DNA from: a virus
Virus record (IMG/VR): IMGVR_UViG_3300020183_000405
Location: 1 to 26,089 of that record
Length of the DNA stretch: 26,089 bases
Direction: 5' to 3' (one strand)
Below, piece by piece: positions 2,264-25,353 of the stretch. A program made the translations under genes and the position numbers. The notes under the pieces are model-generated. The model was not told where the DNA came from, made no database searches, and worked only from the letters and a program-made list of their open reading frames with translations. Within the stretch, counting starts at the first letter, position 1; each line of letters opens with the position of its first letter.

Positions 2264-3611
2264 TCTGAGAAAGGTATCTTCTAGTAAATCACTAGCAGTT
2301 CTTGAATGCAAACTTATCGGTTCGAATGGGCAAGTCATAGATCTAAAGAATCCTTTAATCTTTAACACCATTCAGATCTATGAGAGTATTTACTCCCCTG
2401 TAGTTACTGGAACAATACAATTAATCGAAGGTGTTAATCTTTATTCATTGCTCAGTATGCACGGCAATGAGTATCTGTACATCTCATTCTGCCGTCCTGG
2501 TGAAGAAAACAAAGATTCGAGATATACTAGAACATTTAGAATTTATAAATCAGATCATCGATCGAGGCATCAAACGTCTCAATCACAAACATATGTTTTG
2601 CATTTTTGTTCAAATGAATTAGTATTATCTTCAGGGCAAGTAATATCAAGAACACTAGAGGGGTTGAGTGCTGCAGAACATGTTTACAACATTCTAACGC
2701 AAGATCTATTAGCAAATAAAAAACGTGTTAAAAATTTTGAAAAATCTCAAGGTATTTTCAATTATACATTCACGCAATACAAACCATTTGAAGCGATTGA
2801 AAGATTGTCTAAATATTCCTATAATGAAAACAATTCTCCATTTTTGTTCTTTGAAAATAGAGATGGATACAATTTTATTTCGTTAGAGAAACTAGTAAAA
2901 CAAGATCCAGTAACAACATTAAACGCGAGTACAGCGAATTTCGCTTTAGATCCCAACGAAGCTCCGTTTGTTACTTCTAATGACATTAAGAAGTTTGAGT
3001 TCGAGCAGGGGTTTAATGTGCTAGAAGGTGTTAAGAATAATGCATTCTCTGGCAGATTGTTTACGTTAGATCTTATTCGACAAAAGTACGAACGAAACGA
3101 TTACAGCGCTTTAAATTTTCAATTGTTACCATCTATGCTAGATGGATATCCGCCATTTAACGACGCAAAGAATAGAGAAGGTAAATCATTGTTCCAGGAC
3201 TACGATGGAGTTCCAGATTATTTTTTGACAAATTTAAACCAAAACGAAACATCATATTTCGTTTCTAAAGGATACAAGGTTATTAACACTAACATCGAAA
3301 GAATTCATATGCACAGAAAGATGCTATTGGGTTTGTTAAATAACACTCGAGTTATGTGTCAGATATCTGGTAATCCTAATTTATCTGTTGGATATGTGGT
3401 TGCATTTAACATGCCAGCATATATGCCAAATAAATCAGATACAGCCACAGATCCATACAATTCAGGTAAATATCTGATCGCGCATGTTAGACACTCAATT
3501 ACACCTGATGATATTGAAACTGTTATGCTAATGAATAAAAACTCAGTCCTAACTCCGTTTGATGCTGCTTCTAATGAGAGCAGAGATTATACTGTTGCGA
3601 GAGACTTTTAA
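2256..3611 (+). CDS. 27: Baseplate central hub protein gp27-like
   Basis: A 451-aa protein that fits the gp27/gpD-like hub family (391 aa in T4), which forms the trimeric torus between the tail tube and the gp5 spike. Features seen are an N-terminal tube-like beta domain with SPVVTGTIQLIEGVNLYSL and YLYISFCRPGE, a middle region with ISRTLEGLSAAEHVYNIL, and FNYTFTQYKPFEAIERLSKY followed by SPFLFFENRDGYNFISLE, the usual hub pattern. A C-terminal barrel region contains VMCQISGNPNLSVGYVVAF and GKYLIAHVRHSI. The gene starts inside gp53 (8-base overlap ATGGCTGA) and ends in TAATG with the gp5-like gene, so hub and spike are produced in sequence. Assignment rests on motif layout and on being immediately before gp5. 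Confidence 0.8.
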   Translation: MADLRKVSSSKSLAVLECKLIGSNGQVIDLKNPLIFNTIQIYESIYSPVVTGTIQLIEGVNLYSLLSMHGNEYLYISFCRPGEENKDSRYTRTFRIYKSDHRSRHQTSQSQTYVLHFCSNELVLSSGQVISRTLEGLSAAEHVYNILTQDLLANKKRVKNFEKSQGIFNYTFTQYKPFEAIERLSKYSYNENNSPFLFFENRDGYNFISLEKLVKQDPVTTLNASTANFALDPNEAPFVTSNDIKKFEFEQGFNVLEGVKNNAFSGRLFTLDLIRQKYERNDYSALNFQLLPSMLDGYPPFNDAKNREGKSLFQDYDGVPDYFLTNLNQNETSYFVSKGYKVINTNIERIHMHRKMLLGLLNNTRVMCQISGNPNLSVGYVVAFNMPAYMPNKSDTATDPYNSGKYLIAHVRHSITPDDIETVMLMNKNSVLTPFDAASNESRDYTVARDF

Positions 3612-5203
3612 TGAACGCTGACTTTCTTGGATTAAACAATTTTGTCTGGTGGTTTGGTGTGGTCGAGAATCGTCTCGATCCACTAGAACTCGGTCGATGC
3701 CAAGTCCGTTGTTTCGGTTGGCACACTGAGGACATCAATCAAATTCCTATCGATAAATTGCCGTGGGCGCATCCAGTTGTTCCTTATGGTGTTAAGAATG
3801 TACAACCACCGCCAGAAGGAACGATGGTATTTGGATTTTTTGCCGATGGAAAAGAAGGTCAGTATCCTATTATTATGGGTACAGTTCCTGGTGTTCCTGA
3901 CGAGATTCGCCAAAATAATATGGGATTCACTGATCCATATACAGATGAACAGAAAGCAGCAAGCGATTTCCCTAGAAAGATTAAAGAATATGCGATGCGT
4001 ACCGACGCTCGTGGTCTTTCTTTTACAAACGATGTTGCTAAACGCAATCCTTCCAGACTTAACGAACCAACTGTATCTAGACTCGCCAGACCAACAAGAG
4101 TTAATGCTGAGAATGGAACATATGTTGGCGTAGATCCTGCTTCTATTGCAAATACGACCATCGAAATTCAGCGCAAGACTCGTTATGCCAACGTGATCAG
4201 TGCTTCTGGTTATAAATGGAGCGAACCTTATCCATCTTATAATGCAATGTATCCATTCAATAATGCTACGGAAACTGAATCTGGGCATGCATTTGAGATG
4301 GACGACACGCCAGACTTTGAGCGTGTGCAGTTATCACACAGAACTGGATCTACACTAGAGTTTATGCCAGAAGGGCATACCAAGATTAAATCTCAGAAAA
4401 GTCGTTATGATGTGACTATGGGCAATCATTGTTCCTATGTCAACGGTAGTAAAGAAGAGACAGTTCAATCTGACATGTTCCTTCGCATCAATGGTAAACT
4501 TGTTATTCAATGCGCAGGATTAGATATCTCTTCGCAAGGTCCAGTTAATATTAAAGGAACCGACGTTAGCATCAAAGCCGACAATAATCTAAATTTAGGA
4601 TCAGGTGGCTCGACAAGAGTTTCTGGATTTGATGTCGAAGTTCTCGGTTCGAATGCATTTAGGTCTTTCGGTGGCATAGAAGCAACGATGCAAAGCGCTG
4701 CAACAGCATCAGTCGGTGGATTGAACACATTGTTGAATGGCGGCACGATTGAATTTGAAGGCATTTTGTTGAAGTCCACATTTGGAATTCACGACTTTTT
4801 AACGCCACTGCCAGTCACTGCTAAACTCGGTAAAAAAGCGAAGTCCGCTAAAGCGCCAACGAATAAAGCAGCTGAGTTGGGTCCACGCAACTCACCATTT
4901 AATGCAACTACACCAAAGACTGATCGTTTCTCTGTTATTGAGACTGTCAGCACAGAACAAGTCACAGAACCTAAGACGCAGTCTTTAGGAATAACACCAA
5001 TTATTCCTACGTTGACTGGTGAAACGATTGCTAAAATCGATCAGATTACAGGCGCATTGAACGTGAAGATTACAATTCCACAGGTTAATATTTCTAATGA
5101 TGCAGAAAATCCTTTACAAGTTTCAACAGAGACAGATACAGGAACAATCGAAGCACCAGCGTTTACTAGTGCAGCAGCAACTGCGAATACAACAGCAGGA
5201 TAA
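3611..5203 (+). CDS. 5: Baseplate spike gp5-like, lacking a lysozyme domain
   Basis: A 530-aa central spike protein. Residues 1-105 form the gp5/VgrG OB-fold: WWFGVVENRLDPLELGRCQV, DKLPWAHPVVPYG, EGTMVFGFFADGKEGQYPI and MGTVPG. Residues 105-235 are a linker without the catalytic pattern of T4 lysozyme. Residues about 240-390 are a VgrG/gp5-type beta-helix, with SHRTGSTLEFMPEG, VNGSKEETVQSD, GPVNIKGTDVSIKADNN and further short strands. The last 120 residues are Ala/Thr/Pro-rich and low in complexity. T4 gp5 (575 aa) carries lysozyme between the OB-fold and the helix; here that domain is absent, so this is probably a membrane-piercing spike without murein hydrolysis. The start lies in TAATG with GAGAG upstream. 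Confidence 0.87.
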   Translation: MNADFLGLNNFVWWFGVVENRLDPLELGRCQVRCFGWHTEDINQIPIDKLPWAHPVVPYGVKNVQPPPEGTMVFGFFADGKEGQYPIIMGTVPGVPDEIRQNNMGFTDPYTDEQKAASDFPRKIKEYAMRTDARGLSFTNDVAKRNPSRLNEPTVSRLARPTRVNAENGTYVGVDPASIANTTIEIQRKTRYANVISASGYKWSEPYPSYNAMYPFNNATETESGHAFEMDDTPDFERVQLSHRTGSTLEFMPEGHTKIKSQKSRYDVTMGNHCSYVNGSKEETVQSDMFLRINGKLVIQCAGLDISSQGPVNIKGTDVSIKADNNLNLGSGGSTRVSGFDVEVLGSNAFRSFGGIEATMQSAATASVGGLNTLLNGGTIEFEGILLKSTFGIHDFLTPLPVTAKLGKKAKSAKAPTNKAAELGPRNSPFNATTPKTDRFSVIETVSTEQVTEPKTQSLGITPIIPTLTGETIAKIDQITGALNVKITIPQVNISNDAENPLQVSTETDTGTIEAPAFTSAAATANTTAG

Positions 5204-5207
5204 ATAG

Positions 5208-5396
5208 ATGTGCCTGCTCGCTGAAGATGTAACAAGATATAACTTAATTATGAAAAAAATTGGATTCTATGAAGCTCTATCAGAATCAGATATCGAATTT
5301 CTTAAAGAGCATAAGATTGAACATATTTACAAGTCATATCAAGTTCTTTTAGATATGATGAAACAGAGAGGTGCCGTGTCTTCATTGGTAAAATAA
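5208..5396 (+). CDS. Small hypothetical protein (62 aa, or 48 aa from ATG 5250)
   Basis: A short charged ORF following the gp5-like stop by 4 bases. ATG 5208 has AGGA at 5197-5200 at good spacing. An in-frame ATG at 5250 gives a more natural-looking start, MKKIGFYEALSESDIEFLK, without a clear ribosome site. The product is helix-prone and has no membrane segment or recognised motif. It ends 59 bases before the nearest accepted start of the 676-aa gene, whose frame is already open underneath it. Family not recognised; it may be a small virion accessory protein, or its end may mark a frameshift (see findings). Confidence 0.5.
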   Translation: MCLLAEDVTRYNLIMKKIGFYEALSESDIEFLKEHKIEHIYKSYQVLLDMMKQRGAVSSLVK

Positions 5397-5455
5397 TCGG
5401 AAAAATTATTAAAATTGTTCTCTGTCTAATCGGAGGATTACCGTTACTTCAGACC

Positions 5456-7486
5456 TTGGCGATTATGTTTACAGGGAAACCCATTGCATTCTCAAAAGGC
5501 AGTTTCGGTGGCGGTAAGTTCGGAGAATTAGCAAAGAAAATTGCTGAAGGCATCAAAAACGGCAAGGAATGGTTAAACAACTTTAAGAAGGATTTTATTA
5601 ATCCTCTTCTTAACGGTACACTCATCACTCAATTTAAGAGAGATGAGAACGGTAACATTCTTCGCGATGAAAACGGTAATGCACTAGTTGAAAAATCTAC
5701 AGATTTTTTGTCACCATTATCTGACCTTAATGCAACCATTGATCGATATACTGAAAATAACTATGAAGGATTACAAGCTGCTATTCCTGCATTGTTTAGT
5801 AACACCGAACCATCAATCGTATCAGCAAGAAATGCTTTATTAGACAGACTTGGTAAAGTAAATCAATCAACATCATATCGCATCGGTCCATTTAATATTG
5901 GTGAACTCAGCGAAATTGGCACTGTTGCAGACACCAGTTTCGTGCAGACAATGCGTGACTTCCATGACCACACCAATCAATTAGCAGGTGTGAGTTATGA
6001 CAGTGTTAAATTTACGCTGCAAAGATTGTATGGCAACGTCACCATTGCAGGCGCATCAGCAAACATTGCATCCTCAACCATTGTTTCGCCTAATCTAAGA
6101 TCAACAGTTTATCCGTTTACCAATATTGGCGATCTTGTTATCATTAACAGCGAAGAACGTCGTGTTATAGATAAAGGATTTACCGCTGCTCCTTCTGGAA
6201 TAGTTTCTGTATATGCCGACACGGTTGCAAATAGCGTTGTTGTAACCAGCGCATCTGTTGCAGTATTAAACTTGGCTGATTGTTTACTTGCTACCAGCGG
6301 AACACTAAAGGTTGGAACTGGTGTCTTTATTAATGTTAACAACGAGATTCGTCAGGTAAATAGTATTAATTCGCTTGGTGATTATCTTACTGTCCATATT
6401 CCATTTAGAAGCACGGCAACTGCTCAGACATTCTTTAAAGAAACGACGTTTACAGTTAATACTGCATTTAGCACAACTGCAACAGACCAGATCGTTAAGA
6501 TTAAGTCTGAGTTTATTGCCAATAGTCTCTGTCTAGACAATGTAATTACTGGTCGCGGCACATCGTTTACCACAGATCTTGTTGCAAACAATAAGATCTA
6601 CTATGATGAAAAAGAATACTTCGTGGTCTCGGTTACAGATACAACTATTGTGGTTGACGAACCATTAAGATTTACCAATAACTTCCCAATCTTTAAGGTC
6701 ACTGGCGAAACAGCAGCACTTAATTTTGCTGAGGATAGCAACTCTCCAGACGATATTTTAACCACATTTAGTTTGGTTGGACAATTGACCAATGAGAAGA
6801 ACTTCCTCAATGGGTTTACAACCAGAGTCAGAAGAGCAAATGGAATTTACCAAACAGTAAATGCTGCCAACGCATCAGACTCAGCACAATCTTTATTGCA
6901 AGCAGAACTAATGCGTAGGGGTAATCTATTACTAAAGGAAATGATTAATGACCTTCGTGGCGATGCAATCAATAAACTTACAACATCACAGGTTGTTGCC
7001 ACGTTAAGTGGATTCGAAACTCGAATTTTAAATATTCGCAACGAAGTCAAAGATGCCATTGAACAGGATCTTGCTGTCATTAACAAAGTTAAAGGTCTGC
7101 TCAAGGGTCTAATTAAACTCTTTACGACATCTTGCTCTAAGAAAAAACGCAAAGACGGTGATGGCACTTCAGATGATTACATGGATCTAATCTTAGTTCC
7201 AAATCCAGAACGTCAGGGATGCGATGCCACAGAAAGTAACTTTATAGAGATTTTAGATGATATTGACATTGAGTTTAATGATCCAGGAACTACCAATCCA
7301 AATATCTTCCAACCACCTTCTGGCGAGATTCCAACAAATGATATGTTGAATCCAGGAGATCAGTTGGTCGGTCCATACCCACCAAGACCTACCGATAACA
7401 TTACCGACGACGGATTGACTGGTAATCTTGATGGAATTGATCCAAATGTCAAGGCACCTGAAGATCCTTGTGCTAAACCTTGCTAA
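5456..7486 (+). CDS. Large structural protein of unknown function, 676 aa, between gp5 and gp25
   Basis: Not a T4 homologue that I recognise. Marine T4-like phages often carry a protein of this kind between spike and gp25, so a baseplate role is likely by position. The N-terminus is Gly/Lys-rich (GKPIAFSKGSFGGGKFGEL) and then helical. Residues about 210-430 hold three beta modules (IGDLVIINSEERRVI, VFINVNNEIRQVNSINS, KIYYDEKEYFVVSV) also found in the gp7- and gp8-like proteins. Residues 470-560 are helical, followed by a basic cluster (SKKKRK) and an acidic, Pro/Asn-rich tail ending in DPCAKPC. The start is uncertain: TTG 5456 or ATG 5465. Neither has a Shine-Dalgarno at normal spacing; a strong GGAGG at 5432-5436 is too far upstream. 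The frame is open back to 5321. Confidence 0.75.
   Translation: MAIMFTGKPIAFSKGSFGGGKFGELAKKIAEGIKNGKEWLNNFKKDFINPLLNGTLITQFKRDENGNILRDENGNALVEKSTDFLSPLSDLNATIDRYTENNYEGLQAAIPALFSNTEPSIVSARNALLDRLGKVNQSTSYRIGPFNIGELSEIGTVADTSFVQTMRDFHDHTNQLAGVSYDSVKFTLQRLYGNVTIAGASANIASSTIVSPNLRSTVYPFTNIGDLVIINSEERRVIDKGFTAAPSGIVSVYADTVANSVVVTSASVAVLNLADCLLATSGTLKVGTGVFINVNNEIRQVNSINSLGDYLTVHIPFRSTATAQTFFKETTFTVNTAFSTTATDQIVKIKSEFIANSLCLDNVITGRGTSFTTDLVANNKIYYDEKEYFVVSVTDTTIVVDEPLRFTNNFPIFKVTGETAALNFAEDSNSPDDILTTFSLVGQLTNEKNFLNGFTTRVRRANGIYQTVNAANASDSAQSLLQAELMRRGNLLLKEMINDLRGDAINKLTTSQVVATLSGFETRILNIRNEVKDAIEQDLAVINKVKGLLKGLIKLFTTSCSKKKRKDGDGTSDDYMDLILVPNPERQGCDATESNFIEILDDIDIEFNDPGTTNPNIFQPPSGEIPTNDMLNPGDQLVGPYPPRPTDNITDDGLTGNLDGIDPNVKAPEDPCAKPC
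6121..6720 (+). repeat. Beta module A, three copies inside the 676-aa protein
   Basis: Three successive segments share the pattern glycine-turn, hydrophobic strand, E-x-R/Y-x-V strand, then a loop and a hydrophobic strand. The signatures are IGDLVIINSEERRVI (about 6121-6170), TGVFINVNNEIRQVNSINS followed by LGDYLTVHIPF (about 6310-6420), and FTTDLVANNKIYYDEKEYFV followed by TTIVVDEPLRF (about 6560-6680). They are diverged, so this is protein-level rather than DNA-level repetition. Confidence 0.6.
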
Positions 7487-7506: not shown

Positions 7507-7899
7507 ATGGCACTAACGACCAGAGAATATAAAGACTTAGATTTAAATTTTAAAGCGCATCCAGTCACAAAAGACGTGGTTAAGCGAACTGGCAATGCAG
7601 CTATTATTGGAGCATTGCGTAATTTAATCTTAACAAATTTGTATGAAAAGCCATTTCAACCTATTTTCGGATCTAGAGTTCGTGGTTTATTGTTTGAAGA
7701 TGTCTCATTTATTACTGCAAACATTCTTCAAACTGAAATTAGTAATGTAATCGCCAATTTTGAACCTCGTGTTGGGATTGATGCGATTCGTGTGCAGGCA
7801 AATCCAGAACAAAATCGCTACGATATTACTATTCGATTCTTCATAAATAATCTCGAAGCACCAATCACAATCAACTTCTTCCTAGAGAAGGTCCGTTAA
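7507..7899 (+). CDS. 25: Baseplate wedge subunit gp25
   Basis: A 130-aa protein of the usual gp25 length (132 aa in T4). gp25 sits at the inner baseplate and is thought to nucleate sheath assembly through its sheath-like core. Family marks include DVVKRTGNAAIIGALRNLIL, TNLYEKPFQPIFGSRVRGLL with the EKPF-x-P-x-FGS core, FEPRVGIDAIRV and the closing ITINFFLEKVR. ATG 7507 has AAGGTG about 6 bases upstream, one of the best ribosome sites in the window. The stop overlaps the gp6 ATG in TAATG; the gp25-gp6 pairing is standard for T4-like phages. Confidence 0.95.
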   Translation: MALTTREYKDLDLNFKAHPVTKDVVKRTGNAAIIGALRNLILTNLYEKPFQPIFGSRVRGLLFEDVSFITANILQTEISNVIANFEPRVGIDAIRVQANPEQNRYDITIRFFINNLEAPITINFFLEKVR

Positions 7900-9968
7900 T
7901 GGCAAACACTGATCAAAAACTTGTAGTTTCTGAGTTAGATTTTACTCAGATTAAAAATAATTTAAAGAATTTCCTCAGAGACCAGTCTGAGTTTTCAGAC
8001 TTTGACTTCGAGGCTGCAGGTATTAATACCCTATTAGATATTCTTGCATACAATACGCATTATATGGCATTCTATAACAACATGATTGCTAATGAAATGT
8101 TCTTGGATACTGCGTTGCTTCGAGATTCAGTGGTATCTCATGCCAAAATGCTAGGATACACGCCTGTATCCTCAGTCGCATCGCGAGCGACGATAAATTT
8201 ACAAATTACTCGCCCGCAAGGTAATACACAAACAACGCTAACCTTACCCAGATTTACTCGATTACAATCAACGCCACTTAATGGTGTATCGTTCACATTC
8301 GTGAACACAGAAGCGAAAACAACTAATTATGATCCAACTTGTAATCGTTTTTGTTTTGATAATTTGTATATTTACCAAGGTCAACCATTAACCTATACAT
8401 TCACATATAATTCTACTAACAATCCAACTCAGTCATTCGAGTTGCCAGATGCTGGTATCGACACATCATCTTTGGAAGTTTTGGTACAAGAATCATCGAC
8501 GAGCCTTAAGACTGAACGATTTACATTAGCGACAGATGCAACAACAGTCGCTTCTAACTCTGCTGTGTATTTCATCGATGAGACGCGCAATGGCAAATAT
8601 AAAATTAACTTCGGCGATGGTGTAATCGGTAAGAGTTTAACAAATGGTAATATTGTAGTCGCTAACTATATTAAAACAGATGGCGCTGCAGCAAATAAAT
8701 CGAACGCATTTAGTTTAATAGATGCAGTTGGTGGATTTACAAGTTCTATTGTTTTTCCGATTGTGGCGGCTTCTGGGGGATCTGGTCAAGAGTCTGTAAG
8801 TAAGATTCGATTTAGTGCGCCAAAAGCCTATGTTTCAAACAATCGCGGTGTTACGAAAGACGATCTTGTTGCACTTATTAATAAAAATTATCCATACTTC
8901 GAAGCAGTTAATGTTTGGGGTGGTGAAGAAAATGATCCACCTGTCTATGGTAAAGTATTTATTGCTGCAAAACCAACACTCGGAGTTGAGGTTACGGAAT
9001 CTGAAAAACTTGATGTTATTAACAATGTTATTAAACCTGTTTCAGTTGTAACTGTATTACCTGAATTCGTAGACGTAGATTACAACTTTCTAAACATTTA
9101 TGCTGAAGTATATTACGATTCAACTAAAACTGTTCGTTCTAAGGATGCAATTAAATCCTTAGTTCGTACGGCAATTTTAAATTTTAAAGATTCTGAGTTA
9201 GATAACTTTAACAGTCGATTTAAATTGTCTAGATTACTTCGAACAATCGACGACTCAGAGATCTCGATTTCTTATTCTGATGCTGTTGCTGTTATTGAAA
9301 AACGAGTTGTGCCTCAAGTCGGAACTGCGAGAAATTACACACTTAATTTTAGAACGCCAATTACACGCGAAGATTCATCATATAGAATTTACTCGGCGCC
9401 AGGATTTCAACAGTTTGACTCTGATGGAATTCTTCGCGAATGTTTCTTTGAAGAAACTCCAGGATCTTCCTCTGGAATCGAAAAGATTATAATTTTAGAT
9501 GCACCAGGAAGTTATTTAAGTGTACCAACAATTACAATTAAAGGCGACGGTGTAGGCGCAAATGCATATCCGATAGTCGTAAATGGAAAAATTACACAAA
9601 TTGTAGTGGATAAACCAGGTAGTAATTATAAAACTGCAACAGCTGTTACCACATATGAAGAAGAGATTGATGAAACTGTTGATTTAAGTGTTTCCATTCA
9701 AAATCGATTTGGAATTTTACGCAGTTTCTTTTTCGATAAAAACAATATTAAAACTACTTTAAATCCTTCGGCTGGAACTATCGATTATTTGTTAGGTAAA
9801 ATCACATTAAACGAGTTTAACCCAGTTTCAATTAAAGATCCACTTAAAATTCTTCGATTATTTGCTCGACCAGCGACAAATAATTTTGAATCTGCACGCA
9901 GTTCAATTATTACTATTGACGATGATGATGCGAATGCAATTAAAATTGATACACGCATACTTAATTAA
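7899..9968 (+). CDS. 6: Baseplate wedge subunit gp6
   Basis: A 689-aa protein matching T4 gp6 (660 aa), which dimerises to form the continuous inner ring of the baseplate, with a gpJ-like core. Diagnostic segments are the N-terminal FEAAGINTLLDILAYNTHYM, NEMFLDTALLRDSVVSHAKM and LGYTPVSSVASRATI, the gpJ-like KYKINFGDGVIGKSL, and APKAYVSNNRGVTKDDLVAL. The region after about residue 500 is less conserved. Residues about 526-575 carry a GSYLSVPTITIKGDGVGANA-type insert (module B). The start lies in TAATG, with GAAGG upstream in the gp25 gene. Confidence 0.95.
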   Translation: MANTDQKLVVSELDFTQIKNNLKNFLRDQSEFSDFDFEAAGINTLLDILAYNTHYMAFYNNMIANEMFLDTALLRDSVVSHAKMLGYTPVSSVASRATINLQITRPQGNTQTTLTLPRFTRLQSTPLNGVSFTFVNTEAKTTNYDPTCNRFCFDNLYIYQGQPLTYTFTYNSTNNPTQSFELPDAGIDTSSLEVLVQESSTSLKTERFTLATDATTVASNSAVYFIDETRNGKYKINFGDGVIGKSLTNGNIVVANYIKTDGAAANKSNAFSLIDAVGGFTSSIVFPIVAASGGSGQESVSKIRFSAPKAYVSNNRGVTKDDLVALINKNYPYFEAVNVWGGEENDPPVYGKVFIAAKPTLGVEVTESEKLDVINNVIKPVSVVTVLPEFVDVDYNFLNIYAEVYYDSTKTVRSKDAIKSLVRTAILNFKDSELDNFNSRFKLSRLLRTIDDSEISISYSDAVAVIEKRVVPQVGTARNYTLNFRTPITREDSSYRIYSAPGFQQFDSDGILRECFFEETPGSSSGIEKIIILDAPGSYLSVPTITIKGDGVGANAYPIVVNGKITQIVVDKPGSNYKTATAVTTYEEEIDETVDLSVSIQNRFGILRSFFFDKNNIKTTLNPSAGTIDYLLGKITLNEFNPVSIKDPLKILRLFARPATNNFESARSSIITIDDDDANAIKIDTRILN
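9474..9650 (+). repeat. Beta module B copy inside gp6
   Basis: The segment IEKIIILDAPGSYLSVPTI then IKGDGVGANAYPIV and GKITQIVVDKPGSNY shows the two half-repeats of module B. Each runs I-x-x-I-x-I, then a G-x-Y turn, then P-T-I-x-I, with GxGA-N-A between them. It follows the conserved gp6 core and has no counterpart that I know of in T4 gp6. Confidence 0.6.
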
Positions 9969-12900
9969 TGTTTGCAAATAATTACATTTCAACCGTAGTC
10001 GAAAACCAGTTACCTGGTTTTATAAGAGCAGATCATCCTAATTTTGTTACATTGCTCAAAAAATACTATGAGTACATGGAGCAATCGAATAAAACATTAC
10101 ATCTTGGTAAACATCTTTATGATTACATGGATGTTGAAACAACTCGCACTGATCTTGTTAAATATTTTAAAACTAAAATTATTCCAAATTTTCCAGAAGA
10201 AACTGAGTTATCTACAGAAAAATTAATTAAATCTGCAAAATATTTTTATTCTAAAAAAGGTTCTGCTGATTCATTTAAATTTTTGTTTAGAACATTATAT
10301 CGTCAAGAAATCGATGTGTATTTTCCGAAAGAGGATATTTTAAAAGCCTCTGATGGTAAATGGAAATTACCACAAGCAATACGACTTGCTTTTACGGATA
10401 CAAGTTCTTTAGTTGTCGGTGGCAATGTAACTGTAAATGCGATTACTGCAAACGTAGTAAGCGCGAATGGATTTAATCTTATATCAAAAGGCATTACTGC
10501 TAATTCATTTATTCGTATAGGTGATTCGCGTCGTAAAGTTCTTACAGTTAATTCTGCTGGAGATTTTCTCAATGTAGAAATTGCATTTGCGAATACCTTT
10601 AACGTCGCTACTGGCGCTGTAATACCAAAAACATTTGATAGCGCAAAACTATTTAAAGTTCAGTTAAGCGAATACACTAATTTTAATATTAAATTGCTTG
10701 AAAAGAAACTCGGCGTTGGCGAAACTTCCAGAACAACTTGTGTTATTGAAAAAGCAGTATTAACAGTTGATGGAGAAACAGGTCGCGAGTTCGTAGAACT
10801 TTATGTATCAAATGTTACACGACTATTTGATGCGGGCGAGAATTTAATTGTTAAATACACTGAGGCAAATGTAGAAAAAACATTTAAATCGAAAATTGTT
10901 TCATTAATTTCTAACATCAGTTTGTTTAAAAATAGATTTGGTGTTGTACAAACTGGTAGAAAGTATATAACTGGCGATCCTGTTGTCATACATAAAGGAT
11001 TGGCAGATTCGCCCGATGCAGTAAAAGCAGTTGCTGTTGTTAATAATGTTTCTACTGGATCTATTGAGTCTATCGAAATTATAAAACCAGGATATTTTTT
11101 TAGAACTGACCCGAATTCTCTAGTTCGTGTGCTTTCTACAACAGGCATCGGCGCTAACGTATTAATTTCTGGTATTTGGGATGATGGTGGTGCAAACAGC
11201 GCAGACATTCAGTTTAATACAGATTCTGTTTACTATAAAAACGATATTTTATTAAATGCGTTAGAGTATGATTTCGATAATGTAACAACATTTGCAAATC
11301 AAACAATCGGCGCAGGAAATACTACAACATTAATTAATTTAAACACAGCAACTCATGTAGCCAGTACAACAAATGATTTTTATAAATCCTTTGTATTAAG
11401 AGTTATAAGCGGAACGGGTTCTGGTTCTTCACCAAATACAACGACAATCACTGCATATAATGGAACAACTAAAATTGCAACATTATCGCCAGCTCTTGGT
11501 TCTGCTGTAGATGGCACTAGCAATGTTAAAATTTTTGCAAATGCTCAAACAGAAATAGGCAGAGCATTAACATTTGAAACAATTACTCTCGGTAAAGTTC
11601 GTGCACTAAATCTAGAAGATGGTGGATCATTCTTTGAAGCACCACCTACTTTCGACGCGATTTCTTTACATAATTCCGATTATTCAACCGATCAGGGATT
11701 TTTAAGAATCCCCTCAGGTCAATTTTCTGTGTACAATCCATCAGGGGAACCACCAAGTATTCGTTTAAATTCGTCAAACTCAACATATAGTTTGGCAAAT
11801 GGATTTTATACTGGAAGTCGTTTATTTTTAGATGTCGGTGATACTGCTCACTATTCTGAAATAGTAGATTATGTTGTAAATGATCCAGGCAGTTCCGCGA
11901 ATACAAAAACCATATTTTTAGATAGAAAATTTGCAAATAATATTACAGCAATAAACATTTTAAATTTCGCATTATTTTTAGATTTTCGACCAAATGTTAG
12001 AGGCGCTGGCAAACTCGGTCTCGTTGAAATAAAAAGCGGAGGTAGTGGGTATAATATAACGAATAATGTAATTGAGTTTATAGGAACTGGATATGGCGCT
12101 AATGCATATCATACAGTTGATGCGAATGGAGCAATATCGAGTATAACCATTGATAATCGTGGAGAGGGTTATCCAGTAGCACCGACCATTTTAGTTAGAG
12201 ATACGAATACAGGTAATGTGTCCTCTGGAACTGGTGCTGTGCTCGAAGTCTATTTACTAAGTGATGGTGAAGAATTTTCAGCTGAAACCTCAGATATTGG
12301 TCGAATTCAAGACTTTAAAATCATTAATCGTGGATTTGAATATGCGAATACGCCGCTCACCTCATTAAAAATTGTTGATGTTTTGACCGACAATCTCGCT
12401 ACAAGTCAAATTATCGTGTCTGGTGATTCTGTTTGGCAAGGTGGAGCCACGAATGCCAATGCAACGTTCCGTGGCACGATTGATGACATTTATCGATCAG
12501 AATCAACTGGTGGCGCCTTTGGTTTAGGTAATACAGTTCTTCGTGTCTTTAACTATTCAGGAACAATCGACACCGCGCAGCCTATAAAAGCGAATACTGA
12601 AGCTGGTAATGTTGTTCTTAACGTCTCCACATCTAATGCAACCATATCCTTTAATGATATCAATGATGCTACGGAACGACAATATCCACATTACTATGGT
12701 GATGGATTAGCCAAGGCAAACACTGAGTTCCTTCGAGGCTTAATTAAATATGGTGGATTTTATTTAAACACTGATGGATTCTTAAGTGCAGATAAAAAGA
12801 TACAAAATGACGACTATTTTCATAATTTCTCGTATGAAATCGTCTCTGAAAAGACCTTAGAAGATTATAACGAAACAGTATATCGTGTTGCTCATCCCGC

Positions 12901-13453
12901 AGGTGTGCAATTACTAGCCAAATTTCTTATGAAGGATATTTTATCTGGGCAAATGAATTTAACATCCAATGTGTACACGTCCAACACATTGCAAGCCACC
13001 AATGCAAACACCTCATTTTCTAGCAATAGTTTCTTTGGTAATACCTCTAACTTTACAGTAAACGCGAGTAATGGTGATTTAATTGTAATAAATACTACAG
13101 AGACTGCATCTTTAAAACAATACACAAGAGTTATCGCGAACGTAGTAGATGCTAATCTTATTCATTTAGATTATCCGATTGGTGGTTTAGGTGATGGCAA
13201 ATTAAGAACAGTGAGTGGTAATGCAAATGTAATTGTGTTCTCAAACACATCAGCTGTTTCTGAAAGTTTAGAGGCAGGAGATAACATTAGATTTAATGTT
13301 GCAGGAACAATTTATGATCGATATGTTATATCAACGCCAACTAGTAACGTGGTGTTATTAAACACAACGATAAGCGACACAGGAAATGTGGTTTACAATA
13401 AAGAGCCGAAATATAATGTTATCTCGTATAAAATTATTCGAACAGGTTTATAA
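9968..13453 (+). CDS. 7: Baseplate wedge subunit gp7-like, rearranged and enlarged
   Basis: An 1161-aa protein assigned to gp7, the wedge connector that ties gp6 to gp8 and gp10 in T4 (1032 aa). Residues about 20-125 (LPGFIRADHPNFVTLLKKYY, FYSKKGSADSFKFLFRTLYR, QEIDVYF) match a block near the C-terminus of T4 gp7 (FYSTKGIEASYKFLFKVLYN, EEVEIEI). Residues about 945-995 (NFSYEIVSEKTLEDY, VYRVAHPAGVQLLAKFLMK) match the block following it in T4 (YYVMKIKS, VIRFVHPVGFGFIAI). Between them are roughly 800 residues of beta-rich sequence carrying modules A, B and C, and about 165 more follow. The T4 N-terminal domains are missing. The ATG overlaps the gp6 stop in TAATG with no Shine-Dalgarno, so translation probably depends on coupling. 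Its place between gp6 and gp8 supports the call. Confidence 0.8.
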   Translation: MFANNYISTVVENQLPGFIRADHPNFVTLLKKYYEYMEQSNKTLHLGKHLYDYMDVETTRTDLVKYFKTKIIPNFPEETELSTEKLIKSAKYFYSKKGSADSFKFLFRTLYRQEIDVYFPKEDILKASDGKWKLPQAIRLAFTDTSSLVVGGNVTVNAITANVVSANGFNLISKGITANSFIRIGDSRRKVLTVNSAGDFLNVEIAFANTFNVATGAVIPKTFDSAKLFKVQLSEYTNFNIKLLEKKLGVGETSRTTCVIEKAVLTVDGETGREFVELYVSNVTRLFDAGENLIVKYTEANVEKTFKSKIVSLISNISLFKNRFGVVQTGRKYITGDPVVIHKGLADSPDAVKAVAVVNNVSTGSIESIEIIKPGYFFRTDPNSLVRVLSTTGIGANVLISGIWDDGGANSADIQFNTDSVYYKNDILLNALEYDFDNVTTFANQTIGAGNTTTLINLNTATHVASTTNDFYKSFVLRVISGTGSGSSPNTTTITAYNGTTKIATLSPALGSAVDGTSNVKIFANAQTEIGRALTFETITLGKVRALNLEDGGSFFEAPPTFDAISLHNSDYSTDQGFLRIPSGQFSVYNPSGEPPSIRLNSSNSTYSLANGFYTGSRLFLDVGDTAHYSEIVDYVVNDPGSSANTKTIFLDRKFANNITAINILNFALFLDFRPNVRGAGKLGLVEIKSGGSGYNITNNVIEFIGTGYGANAYHTVDANGAISSITIDNRGEGYPVAPTILVRDTNTGNVSSGTGAVLEVYLLSDGEEFSAETSDIGRIQDFKIINRGFEYANTPLTSLKIVDVLTDNLATSQIIVSGDSVWQGGATNANATFRGTIDDIYRSESTGGAFGLGNTVLRVFNYSGTIDTAQPIKANTEAGNVVLNVSTSNATISFNDINDATERQYPHYYGDGLAKANTEFLRGLIKYGGFYLNTDGFLSADKKIQNDDYFHNFSYEIVSEKTLEDYNETVYRVAHPAGVQLLAKFLMKDILSGQMNLTSNVYTSNTLQATNANTSFSSNSFFGNTSNFTVNASNGDLIVINTTETASLKQYTRVIANVVDANLIHLDYPIGGLGDGKLRTVSGNANVIVFSNTSAVSESLEAGDNIRFNVAGTIYDRYVISTPTSNVVLLNTTISDTGNVVYNKEPKYNVISYKIIRTGL
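10459..10680 (+). repeat. Beta module A copy in gp7-like
   Basis: SKGITANSFIRIGDSRRKVL, then VNSAGDFLNVEIAFANTF and AKLFKVQLSEY, follow directly after the helical gp7 block. Compare VFINVNNEIRQVNSINS and LGDYLTVHIPF in the 676-aa protein: same strand order, the S/E-x-R-x-V motif, N-S-x-G-D-x-L and the terminal hydrophobic strand. A looser copy appears at the C-terminus of the same protein (about 13060-13340, GDLIVINTTE and GDNIRFNVAGTIYDRYV). Confidence 0.6.
11290..11560 (+). repeat. Beta module C copy in gp7-like
   Basis: GAGNTTTLINLN, then FVLRVISGTGSGS and ITAYNGTTKIATLSPALG. The YNGTTKIATL signature is common in phage tail and fibre proteins. The 17 bases at 11453-11469 are identical to 16539-16555 in the DUF4815 gene, so these two copies are related at DNA level. 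Confidence 0.7.
12001..12260 (+). repeat. Beta module B copy in gp7-like
   Basis: LGLVEIKSGGSGYNITN, then FIGTGYGANAYHTV and GAISSITIDNRGEGYPVAPT, with two G-x-GY turns and the GANAY link also present in the gp6 copy (GANAY at both sites). A half-copy lies upstream at about 11064-11170 (IESIEIIKPGYFFRTDP, GIGANVLI). Confidence 0.7.
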
Positions 13454-15085
13454 ATGAAGTCGTTAGTAACAAAAAGTTTTGGAATTACAAACGCTAAAAA
13501 CTTCGAAAAAATGGTTTCAGTTCCATTAGCGAATGTTTATATTCTAATAGGTAGATCATTACCATGGGCAAACACTGCCAATGCTGCTAATTTCGATGAT
13601 GTTACAATTACAACTCCGCACAATACTACACACTATGAAAATGGTATAAAGCGCGATGGATTAATTTTAACACGAATTACCAGCAATGATATTCAGCCAG
13701 TTATCCCAAGAGTAGATTGGTCGAATAACACAGTTTACGTTGCTTACGATCAAACGGCAAATCTTTTCATAAAAGTATTAGATACACAAGTTTCTGGCGG
13801 TAATGTAAATGTTTCTGCAGGTCTTGCTAATACTGTAAATGCTAATGGGATTAACTTCACTTCTTCATCGCCCGTAATCTCAGTCGGAGATTATATTAAA
13901 ATTGGTACAGAAATTAAAGAAGTAATTAAATCGAATGCAACAGCGTTGGTTGTAAACTCTAACTTTACAAGCGCATATACTTCTGCAAATATATTTGAAG
14001 TAAATTATTCCACAACGCAGTATTCCAATAAGTTTTATGTTCGTAATGGTCAAGATCAAGTATTTAAATGTTTATTTAATAACAATGACGCGCAATCTAA
14101 TACAATGCCACAAATTACTATAGGTGGCGAACTTCCTGAAAATCCATACATCGAGACGATTGATGGATATAAATGGAAATATATGTATACGATTCCCTCG
14201 GGATTAAAAAATAAATTTTTTACTGATAAATACATGCCAGTATTGCGTGACACTGTTGTATTCGACAATGCAAAAGATGGTCGTATTGATATTATTAAGA
14301 TTGTAAGCGGTGGGGATGGACACTTTGCTGGCTCTAATGTTAACAATTATTCTGTTGTTAGTGTAACAGGCGATGGAACTTTGGCGAATGTTACTGTAGA
14401 TGTTGTAAATGGTGTAATTACTGATATTAATATTTTAAATGGTGGTAATAATTATACAACAGCAACTATCACGATTAATGATCCGCTAAAACAATCAATT
14501 AGCAACACTGCAAATTTGCAAGCTGTAATAAGTCCACAGTACGGTCATGGACAAGATCCACAAAAAGAACTTGGCGGATCGAACATCATGATCTCAGTGG
14601 ATTTTGAGGGCGATGTTGCGGGTGAATTACCAGTTGAAAATGATGGGGGAGATTCTATACGACAAATTAGTTTAGTAAAAGATGTAAAACTTGCTAACGG
14701 AATATTTGGTAATGCATCAAACTTTCCAATGTATACTAAAATCTTTACCTCTAATCCACCTGTGGATTTTTCTCGCAATGAAACAGTTTTTGTCGTATCA
14801 GATGAGGCATCAGGCTTCGAAAACTCCATTTTTAATGCAAAAGTTATTCATTTCGATAGTACAAATAATGTGCTGTATGTGAATAACATTGTGGGCAATG
14901 TTAATCTTATTGAGGGTAAAAAGATTACTCAAAAGGACGCTCCATCGGCATTTGCGACAGTTTTTAGTGTTACCAAACCAGATATAAATATTTTCTCTGG
15001 AGAAATTATGTATATTGAAAATAGAGCCAAAATTACTCGTAATGAGAATCAAACTGAATCAACTAGATTTGTAGTAGAATTTTAA
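13454..15085 (+). CDS. 8: Baseplate wedge subunit gp8-like, enlarged
   Basis: A 543-aa protein recognisable as gp8 (334 aa in T4), which dimerises in the outer wedge and binds gp7 and gp10. Matches to T4 in order: YILIGRSLPW (T4 FITFGRSEPW), VIPRVDW (VIPRRDW), QVFKCLFNN (VYRCLD), DGYKWKYMYTIPSG (DGYVWEYLFEIPPD), IRQISLVKDVKL (FRQISIITNPLE), and the C-terminus SGEIMYIENRAKI with QTE near the end (SGEMIYMENRPPI). The extra 200 residues are mainly a module A insert (residues about 115-190) and a module B insert (about 275-355). Its ATG follows the gp7-like stop directly (TAAATG), with AGG about 6 bases upstream. Confidence 0.9.
   Translation: MKSLVTKSFGITNAKNFEKMVSVPLANVYILIGRSLPWANTANAANFDDVTITTPHNTTHYENGIKRDGLILTRITSNDIQPVIPRVDWSNNTVYVAYDQTANLFIKVLDTQVSGGNVNVSAGLANTVNANGINFTSSSPVISVGDYIKIGTEIKEVIKSNATALVVNSNFTSAYTSANIFEVNYSTTQYSNKFYVRNGQDQVFKCLFNNNDAQSNTMPQITIGGELPENPYIETIDGYKWKYMYTIPSGLKNKFFTDKYMPVLRDTVVFDNAKDGRIDIIKIVSGGDGHFAGSNVNNYSVVSVTGDGTLANVTVDVVNGVITDINILNGGNNYTTATITINDPLKQSISNTANLQAVISPQYGHGQDPQKELGGSNIMISVDFEGDVAGELPVENDGGDSIRQISLVKDVKLANGIFGNASNFPMYTKIFTSNPPVDFSRNETVFVVSDEASGFENSIFNAKVIHFDSTNNVLYVNNIVGNVNLIEGKKITQKDAPSAFATVFSVTKPDINIFSGEIMYIENRAKITRNENQTESTRFVVEF
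13795..14010 (+). repeat. Beta module A copy in gp8-like
   Basis: NANGINFTSSSPVISVGDYI, KIGTEIKEVIKSN, TALVVNSNFTSAYTS and NIFEVNY form an insert between the T4-conserved VIPRVDW and VFKCLFNN segments. SVGDYIKIGTEIKEV aligns with GVFINVNNEIRQV in the 676-aa protein and SFIRIGDSRRKV in gp7-like. Confidence 0.65.
14281..14520 (+). repeat. Beta module B copy in gp8-like
   Basis: IDIIKIVSGGDGHFAGS, then VTGDGTLANVTVDV and GVITDINILNGGNNYTTATI. Two half-repeats with the G-x-x-Y/H turns are inserted after the conserved DGYKWKYMYTIPSG region and before IRQISLVKDVKL. Confidence 0.65.
14983..14990 (+). promoter_or_regulatory. Possible internal late promoter before the DUF4815 gene
   Basis: An exact TATAAATA lies inside the 3' end of the gp8-like gene, about 105 bases before ATG 15096. 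A transcript from here would have a leader of about 100 bases into the next gene. One or two chance matches per strand are expected in a window of this length, and the octamer here encodes ordinary residues (ATA AAT after GAT), so support is positional only. Confidence 0.3.
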
Positions 15086-21983: not shown

Positions 21984-22196
21984 ATGAGACATAAAATAGA
22001 AGGTACAAAATATTCTCGTGACTTAAATACTATGGCTGTTTTATGTAATGATCGATCAGAAGTTATTCGATATGAAAATGAGCTGAAAAAACATCAAGAG
22101 AACTTAGCTCGTGATGAGGAGATAAATAACATTAAGATGGAATTATCTGAAATAAAAGAAATGCTCAAGAATTTGAGCAGAGGACAAAATGGCTAA
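21984..22196 (+). CDS. Small coiled-coil protein, 70 aa, between structural genes
   Basis: A 70-aa hydrophilic protein starting [20 protein letters not shown], followed by a charged helix (residues about 25-65, [32 protein letters not shown]) with heptad-like spacing that predicts a coiled coil. ATG 21984 is 4 bases after the previous stop; an overlapping ATG at 21980 opens only four codons. The last 8 bases overlap the fibre gene. Small proteins of this shape occur beside tail genes in marine T4-like phages, but I cannot name a function. A minor virion part or fibre-assembly helper would both fit the position. Confidence 0.65.
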
Positions 22197-25100
22197 TGCA
22201 AACATAGCAACAATTTCTGTTACGAATACATTTGATGAGTGGCGCACACGCACAAATGACGTTATTACAGATAGAAATATTCTTCGTAATCATCCATATG
22301 TAAAAGATAATTCAAACTTTGTCGTTGCAAATGGTGCTATACAAATCGCTAGAACTGGTGGTGGTACATTACTTACAATTACAAGTGGTGATGCCTCGGT
22401 CGGTGGTACGACAACAACTGTTGATCTTATTGTAAGCGATGATGCCTCTGTAGCGAATCAATTAACCGTTACTGGAAATACAATTGTCACTGGTAATGTT
22501 TCTATTTCTAAAAATACAGCTGTTTCACAAAATTTAGTTGTTACAGGAACCGCAAATGTTACGGGCGATTTAAAAGTCACAGGAAACACGACATTACAAT
22601 CTAACTTGGCTGTATCGTCTAATGCGACTGTAAGTCAAAATTTAGTTGTTACAGGAACCGCGAATGTTACAAATAATTTAAAGGTTGCAGGAAATGCTGA
22701 ATTACAGTCTAATTTGACTGTATCATCTAATGCGACTGTAAGTCAGAATTTAGCCGTAAGTGGAACTGCGAATGTAACAAATAATTTTAAAGTTGGTTCT
22801 GATAAATTTTTAGTCACTGCTTCAACTGGTGATACAACAATCGAAGGCGATTTAACTGTTAACGGTGGCGATATTGTATCTACAGCAACAGCGAATGTTG
22901 CGAATGTTACAACTACAACATTAAATCTTGGTGGCGCTGCGACTGCTCTAAACATGGGTGCAGCTGCAGGAACTGTAACTGTTGCTGGAGATCTTGTAGT
23001 CTCTGGTGGGGATATTACCTCTACGGCAATAGCGAATGTTGCAAATGCTACGACTACAACATTAAATCTCGGTGGCGCAGCAACAGCATTAAACATGGGT
23101 GCTGCCACTGGCACGACCACTGTTAGAAATAATCTAAATGTTACTGGTAACACTGAGATTACAGGTACAGCTAATGTAACTGCTGATGTTAAAGTTGGCT
23201 CTAACAAATTTACAGTTAAATCTTCAGATGGAAATACAGCGATTTCTGGAACTTTAAGCGCAACTGGGAATACTGCTCTCTCATCTAATCTTTCTGTTGC
23301 ATCGAATGCAACTATTTCGCAAAATGCAACCGTAACTGGAACACTTAATTCTGGCGCAGCAACATTAGCATCAGCTGTTGTTTCTGGAGCACTTAATTCT
23401 GGTGCTGCGACATTAGCCTCTCTTGGCGTAACTGGTGCAACAACACTTAGTTCAACACTCGGTGTAACTGGTGCAACAACACTTAGTTCGACACTCGGTG
23501 TAACAGGAAATACAACTCTCTCGTCTAATCTTTCTGTTGCATCAAATGCAACTATTGCACAAAATGCGACTGTAACTGGAACATTAAACTCTGGTGCCGC
23601 AACATTAGCATCAGCTGTTGTTTCTGGAGCACTTAATTCTGGCGCAGCAACATTAGCATCAGCCGCAGTAACTGGACTAGCAACTGTTGGAACTACACTT
23701 GACGTTACTGGAAACACAACACTCTCATCTAATCTTTCTGTTGCAAAAAATACGACAATGACACAAAATTTGACTGTAACTGGTACAGCAAATTTAAATG
23801 GTAAAACCACTGCAACAAATATGGTTGTTGATACCGCTGGTTCATACACAATAAATCAAGGCAACGCTGTTTTTAACAATGTCTCAGTACAGGGAACACT
23901 TACAACTTTCCTCCCTGCGGTGAATGATACTGATGTGTTATTATTAAGAGCATTGGCATCTTCTGATGGCGATGCAACATTTCGCTCGCGTCGCGCAGGA
24001 ACATTAGGTAATTCAGAAATTAAGTTTTCTTCAGGTTCAAGTGTTTGGCAAGCAACGGCGAATGCAAATTCAGCATATCAGACAATTATTACCACAGGAA
24101 ATTTGTCAACTTCAGTAAGCAGCACAAGCACTGTTGACGCAGCTACACCGAGCGCAGTAAAAAGTGCATATGATTTAGCGAATCAAGGCGTGCAGTCTGC
24201 AGCTGCTAAAGTTGCCTCAGTATCAGGCACATCAGGTAGAGTTACTTCATCGGGTGGAACAACACCATCAATTGATCTCGCCACAGTAGGATCAATAGCA
24301 GGAACTTATAATTTAGCCACAGTAACTGTAGATAACTTTGGTAGAGTTACTAGTGTCAGCGCAGGATCGCAAGGCGCACAAGGTGCACAAGGATTTCAAG
24401 GCGCTCAAGGATTTCAAGGTGCAACAGGCAGTGTTGGCGCTCAAGGTGCAACAGGCGCACAAGGTGCAGCAGGTGCTCAAGGTCCACAAGGATTTCAAGG
24501 TGCAACAGGCAGTGTTGGCGCTCAAGGTGCAGCAGGTGCTCAAGGTCCACAAGGATTTCAAGGTGCAACAGGCAGTGTTGGCGCTCAAGGTGCAACAGGT
24601 GCTCAAGGTCCACAAGGATTTCAAGGTGCAACTGGCGCTCAAGGTCCAGCAGGCGCTCAAGGTCCACAAGGATTTCAAGGTGCAACTGGCGCTCAAGGTC
24701 CAGCAGGCGCTCAAGGTCCACAAGGATTTCAAGGTGCAACAGGCGGTAGTGGTGCTCAAGGTCCACAAGGTCTGACTGGTCCACAAGGTCTGACTGGTCC
24801 ACAAGGTCTGACTGGTTCACAAGGTCTGACTGGTCCACAAGGTCTGACTGGTCCACAAGGTCTCACTGGTGCACAAGGATTACAGGGTGCAACTGGTCCA
24901 GCAGGTTCTAACAACGTAAGCACACACGCGAAAACAGGTGGTCTTGCTGTTTGGGCATCAGGTGCACCTTCAGGAGCACAAGCTGCAGCTGCTGGAGAAA
25001 TTCGTGCTACTGGTGAAATTACTGCCTTCAATACATCTGATCGTAGATTTAAAGAAAATATTCGTAAGATTGAGAATGCTCTTGAATTAATTAAACAAAT

Positions 25101-25353
25101 TGAGGGTATTCGTTATGACTGGAAGGATGAGTATCTACAAACACGAGGTGGTGTTGACGGATACTTTGTTCGTAAACAAGACGTTGGTGTTATTGCTCAG
25201 GATCTCGAAAGAGTTTTACCAGAAGTTGTTGTTCAGAAAGAAGATGGAACATATGCAGTTCGTTATGAGAAAATTGTAGCATTGTTGCTTGCAGCAATCA
25301 AAGAACTCGATCATAAACATGATTCATTAGTGGCGCATTTAAGGAAAGTCTAA
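22189..25353 (+). CDS. Collagen-like tail fibre with C-terminal peptidase S74 chaperone domain, 1054 aa
   Basis: A probable trimeric receptor-binding fibre. The N-terminus ([20 protein letters not shown]) is a virion-attachment segment common in marine T4-like fibres. Residues about 80-560 are tandem VTGTANV / [12 protein letters not shown] type repeats, probably beta-helical or triple-stranded. Residues 726-908 are 61 uninterrupted Gly-X-Y triplets. The C-terminal 105 residues are an intramolecular chaperone of the S74 family: [46 protein letters not shown] and [15 protein letters not shown]. Ser950 and Lys955 are spaced like the Ser911/Lys916 dyad of endosialidase NF, so self-cleavage before Ser950 after trimerisation is expected. 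ATG 22189 has GAGG 5 bases upstream and overlaps the previous gene by 8 bases. No enzyme or lectin domain is seen between the collagen stalk and the chaperone. Confidence 0.88.
22531..22855 (+). repeat. Tandem 36-aa repeats in the fibre, three copies
   Basis: AATTTAG of the NLxVxGTANVT unit recurs at 22531, 22639 and 22747, an exact 108-base period. Units read [38 protein letters not shown] and [19 protein letters not shown], with SNATVSQ near each junction between units. Third positions differ between copies, so the repeats are old but still in register. Confidence 0.85.
22905..23110 (+). repeat. Tandem 47-aa repeats in the fibre, two copies
   Basis: [18 protein letters not shown] appears twice, with TTAAAT at 22921 and 23062, a 141-base period. 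Each copy is preceded by a [13 protein letters not shown] or [13 protein letters not shown] segment. Confidence 0.8.
23281..23680 (+). repeat. 80-aa duplication in the fibre, with a 12-aa repeat inside
   Basis: Bases 23281-23430 align with 23521-23670 at an exact 240-base offset with few differences ([28 protein letters not shown]). A partial third copy of SSNLSVA starts at 23725. Within the first unit, [12 protein letters not shown] is repeated at 23428 and 23464 (36-base period, nearly identical DNA), a sign of recent slippage or recombination. Confidence 0.85.
24364..24909 (+). repeat. Collagen-like Gly-X-Y region, 61 uninterrupted triplets
   Basis: Every third residue from Gly726 to Gly906 is glycine, with Gln, Ala, Thr and Pro dominating X and Y. 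Longer units [20 protein letters not shown] (with variants, 18-27 aa) come first. Then GPQGLT-type hexapeptides repeat six times (about 24766-24870, 18-base period with nearly identical DNA). It should form a triple-helical stalk. Confidence 0.95.
25036..25350 (+). other. S74 intramolecular chaperone segment with predicted self-cleavage point
   Basis: The codon at 25036 is Ser950, the expected first residue of the released chaperone, with Lys955 as its catalytic partner. The family folds the fibre trimer and is then cut off, so the mature fibre should end at Thr949, only 41 residues after the collagen stalk. Confidence 0.8.

Follow-up and report, generated by a model that had tools for sequence, protein, structure and literature searches.

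A conserved phage gene probably made through an unusual start or a switch of reading frame

In the +1 programmed frameshift of prfB, a strong internal Shine-Dalgarno element stands a few nucleotides (about 3) before the P-site codon, a short upstream reading ends just after it, and the downstream protein lies in another frame. In termination-reinitiation coupling, two genes overlap by about 10-20 nucleotides, the Shine-Dalgarno lies in the upstream open reading frame (ORF), and the stop is near the restart site. Ambiguous initiation at AUGUG and GUGUG involves two codons 2 nucleotides apart, where the Shine-Dalgarno distance picks the frame and the second codon is favoured when this distance is short (PMC9841429). 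The termination upstream ribosome-binding sites (TURBS) of influenza B virus and caliciviruses provide a tether to ribosomal RNA near the stop, and non-AUG reinitiation is possible there. In the bypassing of T4 gene 60 and its candidate counterpart in Streptomyces phage Hau3, a peptidyl-tRNA passes to a matched codon with a Shine-Dalgarno near the landing site. Each of these systems has a likeness to a junction that we describe here in 26,089 nucleotides of DNA from an uncultured, T4-like bacterial virus (IMG/VR record IMGVR_UViG_3300020183_000405, positions 1 to 26,089, hereafter the window; the features of the junction and the two genes that flank it are on the plus strand). At this junction a small gene, ORF1, overlaps a large gene whose protein, the big protein, is probably made through an unusual start or a reading-frame switch, judging from the comparison of its relatives.

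ORF1 (5208-5396) encodes 62 amino acids (MCLLAEDV...), conserved as a protein in relatives, and ends at a TAA at 5394-5396. The big frame is the -1 (or +2) frame of ORF1, so that ORF1 overlaps it in the +1 frame relative to the big frame. It is open from 5321 to 7483, with its stop at 7484-7486, and the ORF list assigns it a gene of 676 amino acids. An earlier note on this DNA had stated that the frame has no ATG, GTG or TTG before the TTG at 5456, and re-reading the window agrees. In an alignment anchored on the conserved motif LCLIGG, the first conserved big-frame codon is a GTC at 5378-5380, which we call codon1 and propose as the first codon of the big protein. Counted from there, the gene spans 5378-7486 with 702 sense codons, and the automatic gene call truncates the protein, because the TTG at 5456 is 26 codons after codon1. 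The Shine-Dalgarno that matters, overlooked in the earlier note, is GAGGUG at 5368-5373 within ORF1 (-8.0 kcal/mol), at an aligned spacing of 4 to codon1, i.e., a DtoStart of 14 (we converted aligned spacings to DtoStart by adding 10). The last two bases before codon1 and its first base form a valine codon of ORF1, GTG at 5376-5378.

A search with the big protein of the window returned 15 related IMG/VR contigs, of which 14 hold the junction, all without an indel, and profile scans added more distant relatives, at about 30-40% identity. We tabulated 52 distinct junctions. A stricter motif and the exclusion of near-duplicates reduced these to 49, and 48 were analyzed (L074 is truncated at the end of its contig). 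All relatives are metagenomic contigs, and states that occur just once or twice (L071, L072, L097, L100, L137) could be errors. Two profile scans of a genome contig collection gave no relative. In the phage GenBank collection, tblastn found no match for ORF1 (limit 1) or for the big proteins of the window (limit 1e-5), of L086 and L072 (limit 0.1), and of L133 (limit 1). The anatomy is common to the 48 distinct IMG/VR junctions; what the note had named as fatal to its concern, homologues all beginning with an ATG at GKPIAFSKG, does not hold among them. From the last in-frame stop to LCLIGG, 43 of the 48 lack any ATG, GTG or TTG. The five exceptions have a GTG at codon1 (L098, L102, L106), a TTG at codon 2 (L072), which may be a genuine start there, or a TTG at codon 13 (L110), which sits within the conserved protein.

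Set against the described systems, the junction departs from each of them. The Shine-Dalgarno is 3-4 nucleotides before the ORF1-frame GTG in the sequences that bear it, as in prfB, but a +2 (or -1) shift would be needed here instead of +1, and in place of CTTT with an adjacent TGA one finds GTGTC or CCGCT and a later TAA or TAG. Furthermore, sequences that lose this arrangement have a start codon at this place and not an in-frame fusion. As in coupled initiation, ORF1 is coding through the Shine-Dalgarno and its stop is close to the start (codon1 -5 to +19, 48/48), but the restart codon is other than AUG, GUG or UUG at codon1 in 45 of the 48, with a canonical codon in three, plus the TTG at codon 2 of L072. 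GUC or GCN stands here in place of the 3' GUG of the AUGUG and GUGUG pairs. The TURBS tether is to helix 26 of the eukaryotic 18S ribosomal RNA, and the natural BM2 start is an AUG. Finally, in comparison with T4 gene 60 and Hau3, a move here would cover 2 nucleotides between overlapping codons, without notable covariation support for a conserved hairpin.

The earlier note had suspected that the frame upstream of the TTG encodes a hydrophobic extension, and this is borne out: the N-terminal extension VFIGKIIGKIIKIVLCLIGGLPLLQTLAI (5378-5464) is real protein, conserved across the 48 distinct junctions, and the big frame encodes ...RVFIGKIIGKIIKIVLCLIGGLPLLQTLAIMFTGKP. Between codon 2 and LCLIGG, the mean entropy at codon positions 1, 2, and 3 is 0.28, 0.03, and 0.80 in a group of 21 sequences, and 0.68, 0.42, and 1.02 in a more divergent group of 27. 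In the big frame, a pairwise comparison counts 771 synonymous vs 315 nonsynonymous codon differences in the first group and 968 vs 1283 in the second. The corresponding counts for the two other frames are 181/925 and 24/1082 (group of 21) and 300/1794 and 127/2058 (group of 27), and these frames contain stops in 21/21 and 20/21 sequences of the first group and in 27/27 and 23/27 of the second. Third positions vary most, and the DNA 5' of LCLIGG is therefore translated in the big frame. In all 48 junctions, the open stretch of the big frame begins no more than 60 nucleotides 5' of codon1, an in-frame stop ends just 3 nucleotides 5' of codon1 in 12 of them, and ORF1 is fused in frame with the big gene in none. 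These comparisons show that the big protein is read from codon1 or from a codon at most about two away, and that the gap in the start signals of the gene is genuine and no sequencing fault. We also observed that the DNA from CTCTGT to GGGAARCCCATT (within 5420-5500) is nearly identical between the clade of the window and L037-L040. The proteins of L037-L040 are about 50% identical to those of this clade overall, and the likeness of the DNA seems to go beyond what the amino acids need.

The first base of codon1 is a G in 48/48 junctions, and the codon is GTC in 30, GCT in 13, GTG in 3, GCC in 1, and GCG in 1. It is preceded by GT in 33 of the 48, where ORF1 thus reads GTG, and by CC in 13. To put this in context, GTG makes up 13.3% of the valine codons of these phages. 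The strength of the Shine-Dalgarno was scored in 51 rows. Among the 48 rows without an in-frame GTG at codon1, 47 have one of -5.3 to -8.0 kcal/mol, and L072 is the sole row with no such element. In the three rows with the in-frame GTG it is always weaker (-2.7, -4.0, and -4.0 kcal/mol). The aligned spacing to codon1 is 2-4 in the 47 strong rows (DtoStart 12-14, against 10-12 for the ORF1-frame GTG). For comparison, in the 197-kb contig of L101 (G001), -5.0 kcal/mol is reached by 45 of 220 ATG starts vs 187 of 4000 random in-gene windows, and the spacing of starts has its mode at 5 and is mostly 2-8.

ORF1, with its MC... start, is in the +1 frame in 46 of the 48 junctions, which are all the readable cases (the end of the contig truncates L098, and a deletion breaks ORF1 in L137). 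Its first stop relative to codon1 is at +7 in 31 junctions, +13 in 8, +16 in 7, +19 in 1, and -5 in 1 (L097). In this last sequence (2960-2995), ORF1 stops at a TAA directly 5' of the junction GTG, where its sister L096, one base apart there, has TAC. In L137 (1531-1840), a deletion that may be real or an assembly fault breaks ORF1 relative to the near-identical L135, and the Shine-Dalgarno, codon1 and the big gene are intact. We also placed these states on a tree of 47 big proteins, rooted at the midpoint for drawing only. The CCG-CT state occurs at two places, and the GTGTC state is probably ancestral, because it is present in both deep clades. L127 (GCT) groups with L098, L102, and L106 (GTG) in a clade with support 100/100. 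Hence, a canonical and a non-canonical codon occur at exactly the same position within one clade.

The reading that we favour, tentatively and at slightly under an even chance, is that a ribosome tethered by the Shine-Dalgarno, and probably delivered by ORF1, starts the big protein at codon1 although this is not a canonical start codon. A ribosome that has read or just finished ORF1 would be held by the Shine-Dalgarno in the ORF1 tail, codon1 would be placed in the P site, and initiator tRNA would start there despite GUC, GCU, GCC, or GCG. The tether and not the codon would set the frame, and coupling to ORF1 would yield a small and coupled amount of the protein. In L098, L102, and L106 the same start would have been made canonical. 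This fits the residues after codon1 in these three sequences (VALSLSS.IIKW or VALSLSSVIKW), which are the same as in GTC relatives, and the pattern of a strong Shine-Dalgarno without GTG at codon1 and a weaker one with it. It also fits the spacing of codon1, within the range of ordinary starts in G001, the lack of any in-frame fusion with ORF1, the early end or break of ORF1 in L097 and L137, and the positions of the +1-frame stops around codon1, which are like those of coupled genes. In E. coli, AUGUG pairs at DtoStart values of 10/12 and 11/13 are initiated solely at their 3' codon, and GUGUG pairs behave likewise when the spacer is short (PMC9841429). Non-AUG reinitiation near a ribosomal RNA tether is described in influenza B virus (PMC3035654).

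Several points weigh against such a start, including the fact that codon1 lies at a spacing below the usual 5. The initiator anticodon CAU is a poor match for GUC, and above all for GCU and GCC, and natural starts at GUC or GCU are not known to us in bacteria. In E. coli, GUC starts have been obtained with an initiator tRNA that carries a mutation to read GUC (PMC2268962). A special initiator tRNA was sought among the 26 tRNA genes of G001, which include Val(UAC), Ala(UGC), Pro(UGG), Leu(UAG), and three Met(CAU) (genes in L175:14187-19801 and L176:10269-10343), and none resembles an initiator for GUC or GCU. In one Met(CAU) tRNA (L176) the acceptor stem ends in a U-U mismatch, which is reminiscent of initiators, but the D stem looks elongator-like. 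GTC is one change away from GTG, yet GTG stands at codon1 in just 3 of the 48 junctions. Plain initiation at codon1 would have no need of the ORF1-frame GTG, which is kept in 33. Finally, the coupling to ORF1 is putative, and L097 and L137, where ORF1 ends early or is broken, are single metagenomic contigs in which errors are possible.

The retention of this GTG, in 33/48 junctions although GTG is a minor valine codon here, speaks for a forward slip of +2 (= -1). With the ORF1-frame GUG at 5376-5378 in the P site, the Shine-Dalgarno would push the ribosome forward, and peptidyl-tRNA-Val would re-pair on the overlapping GUC, with UUC next, giving a fusion of ORF1 and the big protein. We consider this possible but doubtful. 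It would make sense of GTGTC in 30 of the 48 junctions, in both deep clades and as the probable ancestral state, and of ORF1 being in the +1 phase in 46 of 46 readable cases. The gap of 3-4 nucleotides between the Shine-Dalgarno and GTG is close to the 3 nucleotides given for forward (+1) frameshifting, as opposed to the 9-14 of -1 frameshifting (PMC5009743), and the layout is like that of prfB, where CTTT comes three nucleotides after an AGGGGG-like element (PMC12421855). On the other hand, take-off and landing codon are GUG and GUC, which one tRNA might read, in 30 junctions, and there is no such re-pairing in the other 18 (GCT 13, GCC 1, GCG 1, in-frame GTG 3), where ORF1 has a proline codon at this place in the CCG-GCT type. 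In-frame fusions, unlike in prfB, are never seen (0/48), and L098, L102, and L106 need no fusion because they have an ordinary start. A slip at GTG is impossible in L097, because ORF1 stops before it, and in L137, because ORF1 is broken upstream. Nor does the RNAalifold consensus show notable covariation for a conserved stimulatory RNA structure, its covariation terms being -0.25 and -0.82 kcal/mol. Two hairpins seen by eye in the clade of the window, UAAUC-GGAG-GAUUA and CUCUGU...ACAGGG, were rejected, since they fail in other lineages and show no notable covariation. A mixed history, in which the slip from GUG to GUC is natural and family-wide and the slot was turned in other lineages into tether-set initiation independent of the start codon, seems to us unlikely.

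The same GTG could also be read as the place where initiator tRNA binds first, before a Shine-Dalgarno that is too close re-phases it by +2 onto GUC. The GTG in 33/48 junctions and the preference of E. coli ribosomes for the 3' codon of AUGUG and GUGUG at short spacing (PMC9841429) would fit this re-phasing, but we hold it to be improbable, as GTG is absent in 12/48 (CCG-GCT type). A classical -1 frameshift near the end of ORF1, at A AAA TAA (5390-5396) or TCT TCN, is very improbable. A_AAA_TAR does occur in the close clade of the window, but L038-L040, L075, L076, L081, and others stop ORF1 (TAG or TAA) before the run of A, which refutes a shift at the run. Because of these relatives, any shift must fall within AAC GTG TCT TCN. 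No slippery heptamer occurs there and other lineages differ. The earlier note had seen no canonical -1 heptamer near the end of ORF1, and we likewise read no X_XXY_YYZ in the whole overlap of ORF1 and the big gene. Re-pairing of UCU to GUC and of UCN to UUC would be poor, and the next big-frame codon is CTA, CCA, GCA, or TCA in other lineages. A rare AUU start at 5384-5386, as in infC, has an ATT that is 3' of the Shine-Dalgarno and conserved in the close clade of the window. It is highly improbable, and is refuted as a family-wide start, since relatives have CTA (L038-L040), TTT (L037) or, elsewhere, TTA, ATA, or CCA at this codon.

A sequencing indel at the homopolymer AAAA at 5390, or an ordinary start at the TTG of the ORF list (5456-5458) or the ATG at 5465, is hardly credible and is refuted by the relatives: the 48 junctions have no indel (L002 and L003, from other samples, encode proteins 100% identical), the sequence 5' of both codons is conserved protein, and neither codon is conserved (the TTG is CTG in L008 and L012; the ATG is GTG or GTA in L071, L072, and L075, and ACA in L086). 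The earlier note had offered both of these options, which fall, together with a non-standard start and a frameshift joining ORF1 to the large protein, which stand. Its strong orphan Shine-Dalgarno, GGAGG at 5432-5436, turned out to be two glycine codons (GGA GGA), replaced in relatives by GGGGGC, GGTGGT, or GGCGGT. RNA-polymerase slippage was also rejected, since no homopolymer is common to the relatives at the site.

The big gene lies between a gene for a gp5-like baseplate hub and tail lysozyme (3611-5203; PHROG 430, E 2.9e-60; Pfam Gp5_OB) and one for a gp25-like baseplate wedge (7507-7899; PHROG 261, E 8.5e-43; Pfam GPW_gp25). PHROG matches to baseplate families place it within a T4-like baseplate module that comprises a tail tube cap, a gp53-like wedge, the gp5-like hub, the gp25-like wedge and a further wedge gene. 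The neighbours are thus like gp48, gp53, gp5, gp25, and gp6, with the T4 gene numbers gp48 and gp6 following the family descriptions. Sequence searches of Pfam, PHROGs and PDB with the big protein gave weak, inconsistent matches and no family. An AlphaFold2 model built from 30 sequences has a mean predicted local distance difference test (pLDDT) score of 66.9, with residues 1-69 under 50. It shows a low-confidence helical N-terminus, small beta-barrels over residues 209-443 or so, and near 536-585 a long helix. Foldseek found no match of this model in the PDB at E <= 0.001, and 17 in a viral library at the same threshold, with low template modelling (TM) scores. Most VIA-align matches were to a small beta-barrel in the same region (about 209-443), and the best had a Z of 9.4 over 81 aligned residues and a root-mean-square deviation of 3.9. 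The place of the gene and the predicted folds suggest that the big protein is a structural part of the baseplate. By eye, short similar motifs (e.g., INVNNEIRQVNSINSLGDYLTV) repeat in the big protein (window 6200-6700) and in its large neighbours at 9968-13453 and 13454-15085. Further downstream, 22189-25353 encodes a fibre-like protein of 1054 amino acids with long collagen-like repeats (GAQG, GPQG), whose C-terminal part presumably recalls an intramolecular chaperone.

A literature search, which covered open-licence papers, returned no paper on this junction element, and we know of no natural bacterial +2 frameshift. The element is short and conserved over deep divergence, and it comes with natural variants, GTC, GCT, GCC, GCG, and GTG. 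Either of the two readings, initiation at codon1 or a slip into the big frame, would break a rule on which gene callers and textbooks rely. If the slip is true, the junction would be a natural +2 recoding site. If initiation at codon1 is true, bacterial ribosomes would regularly start a conserved virion gene at GUC or GCU, held there by a Shine-Dalgarno and an upstream ORF.

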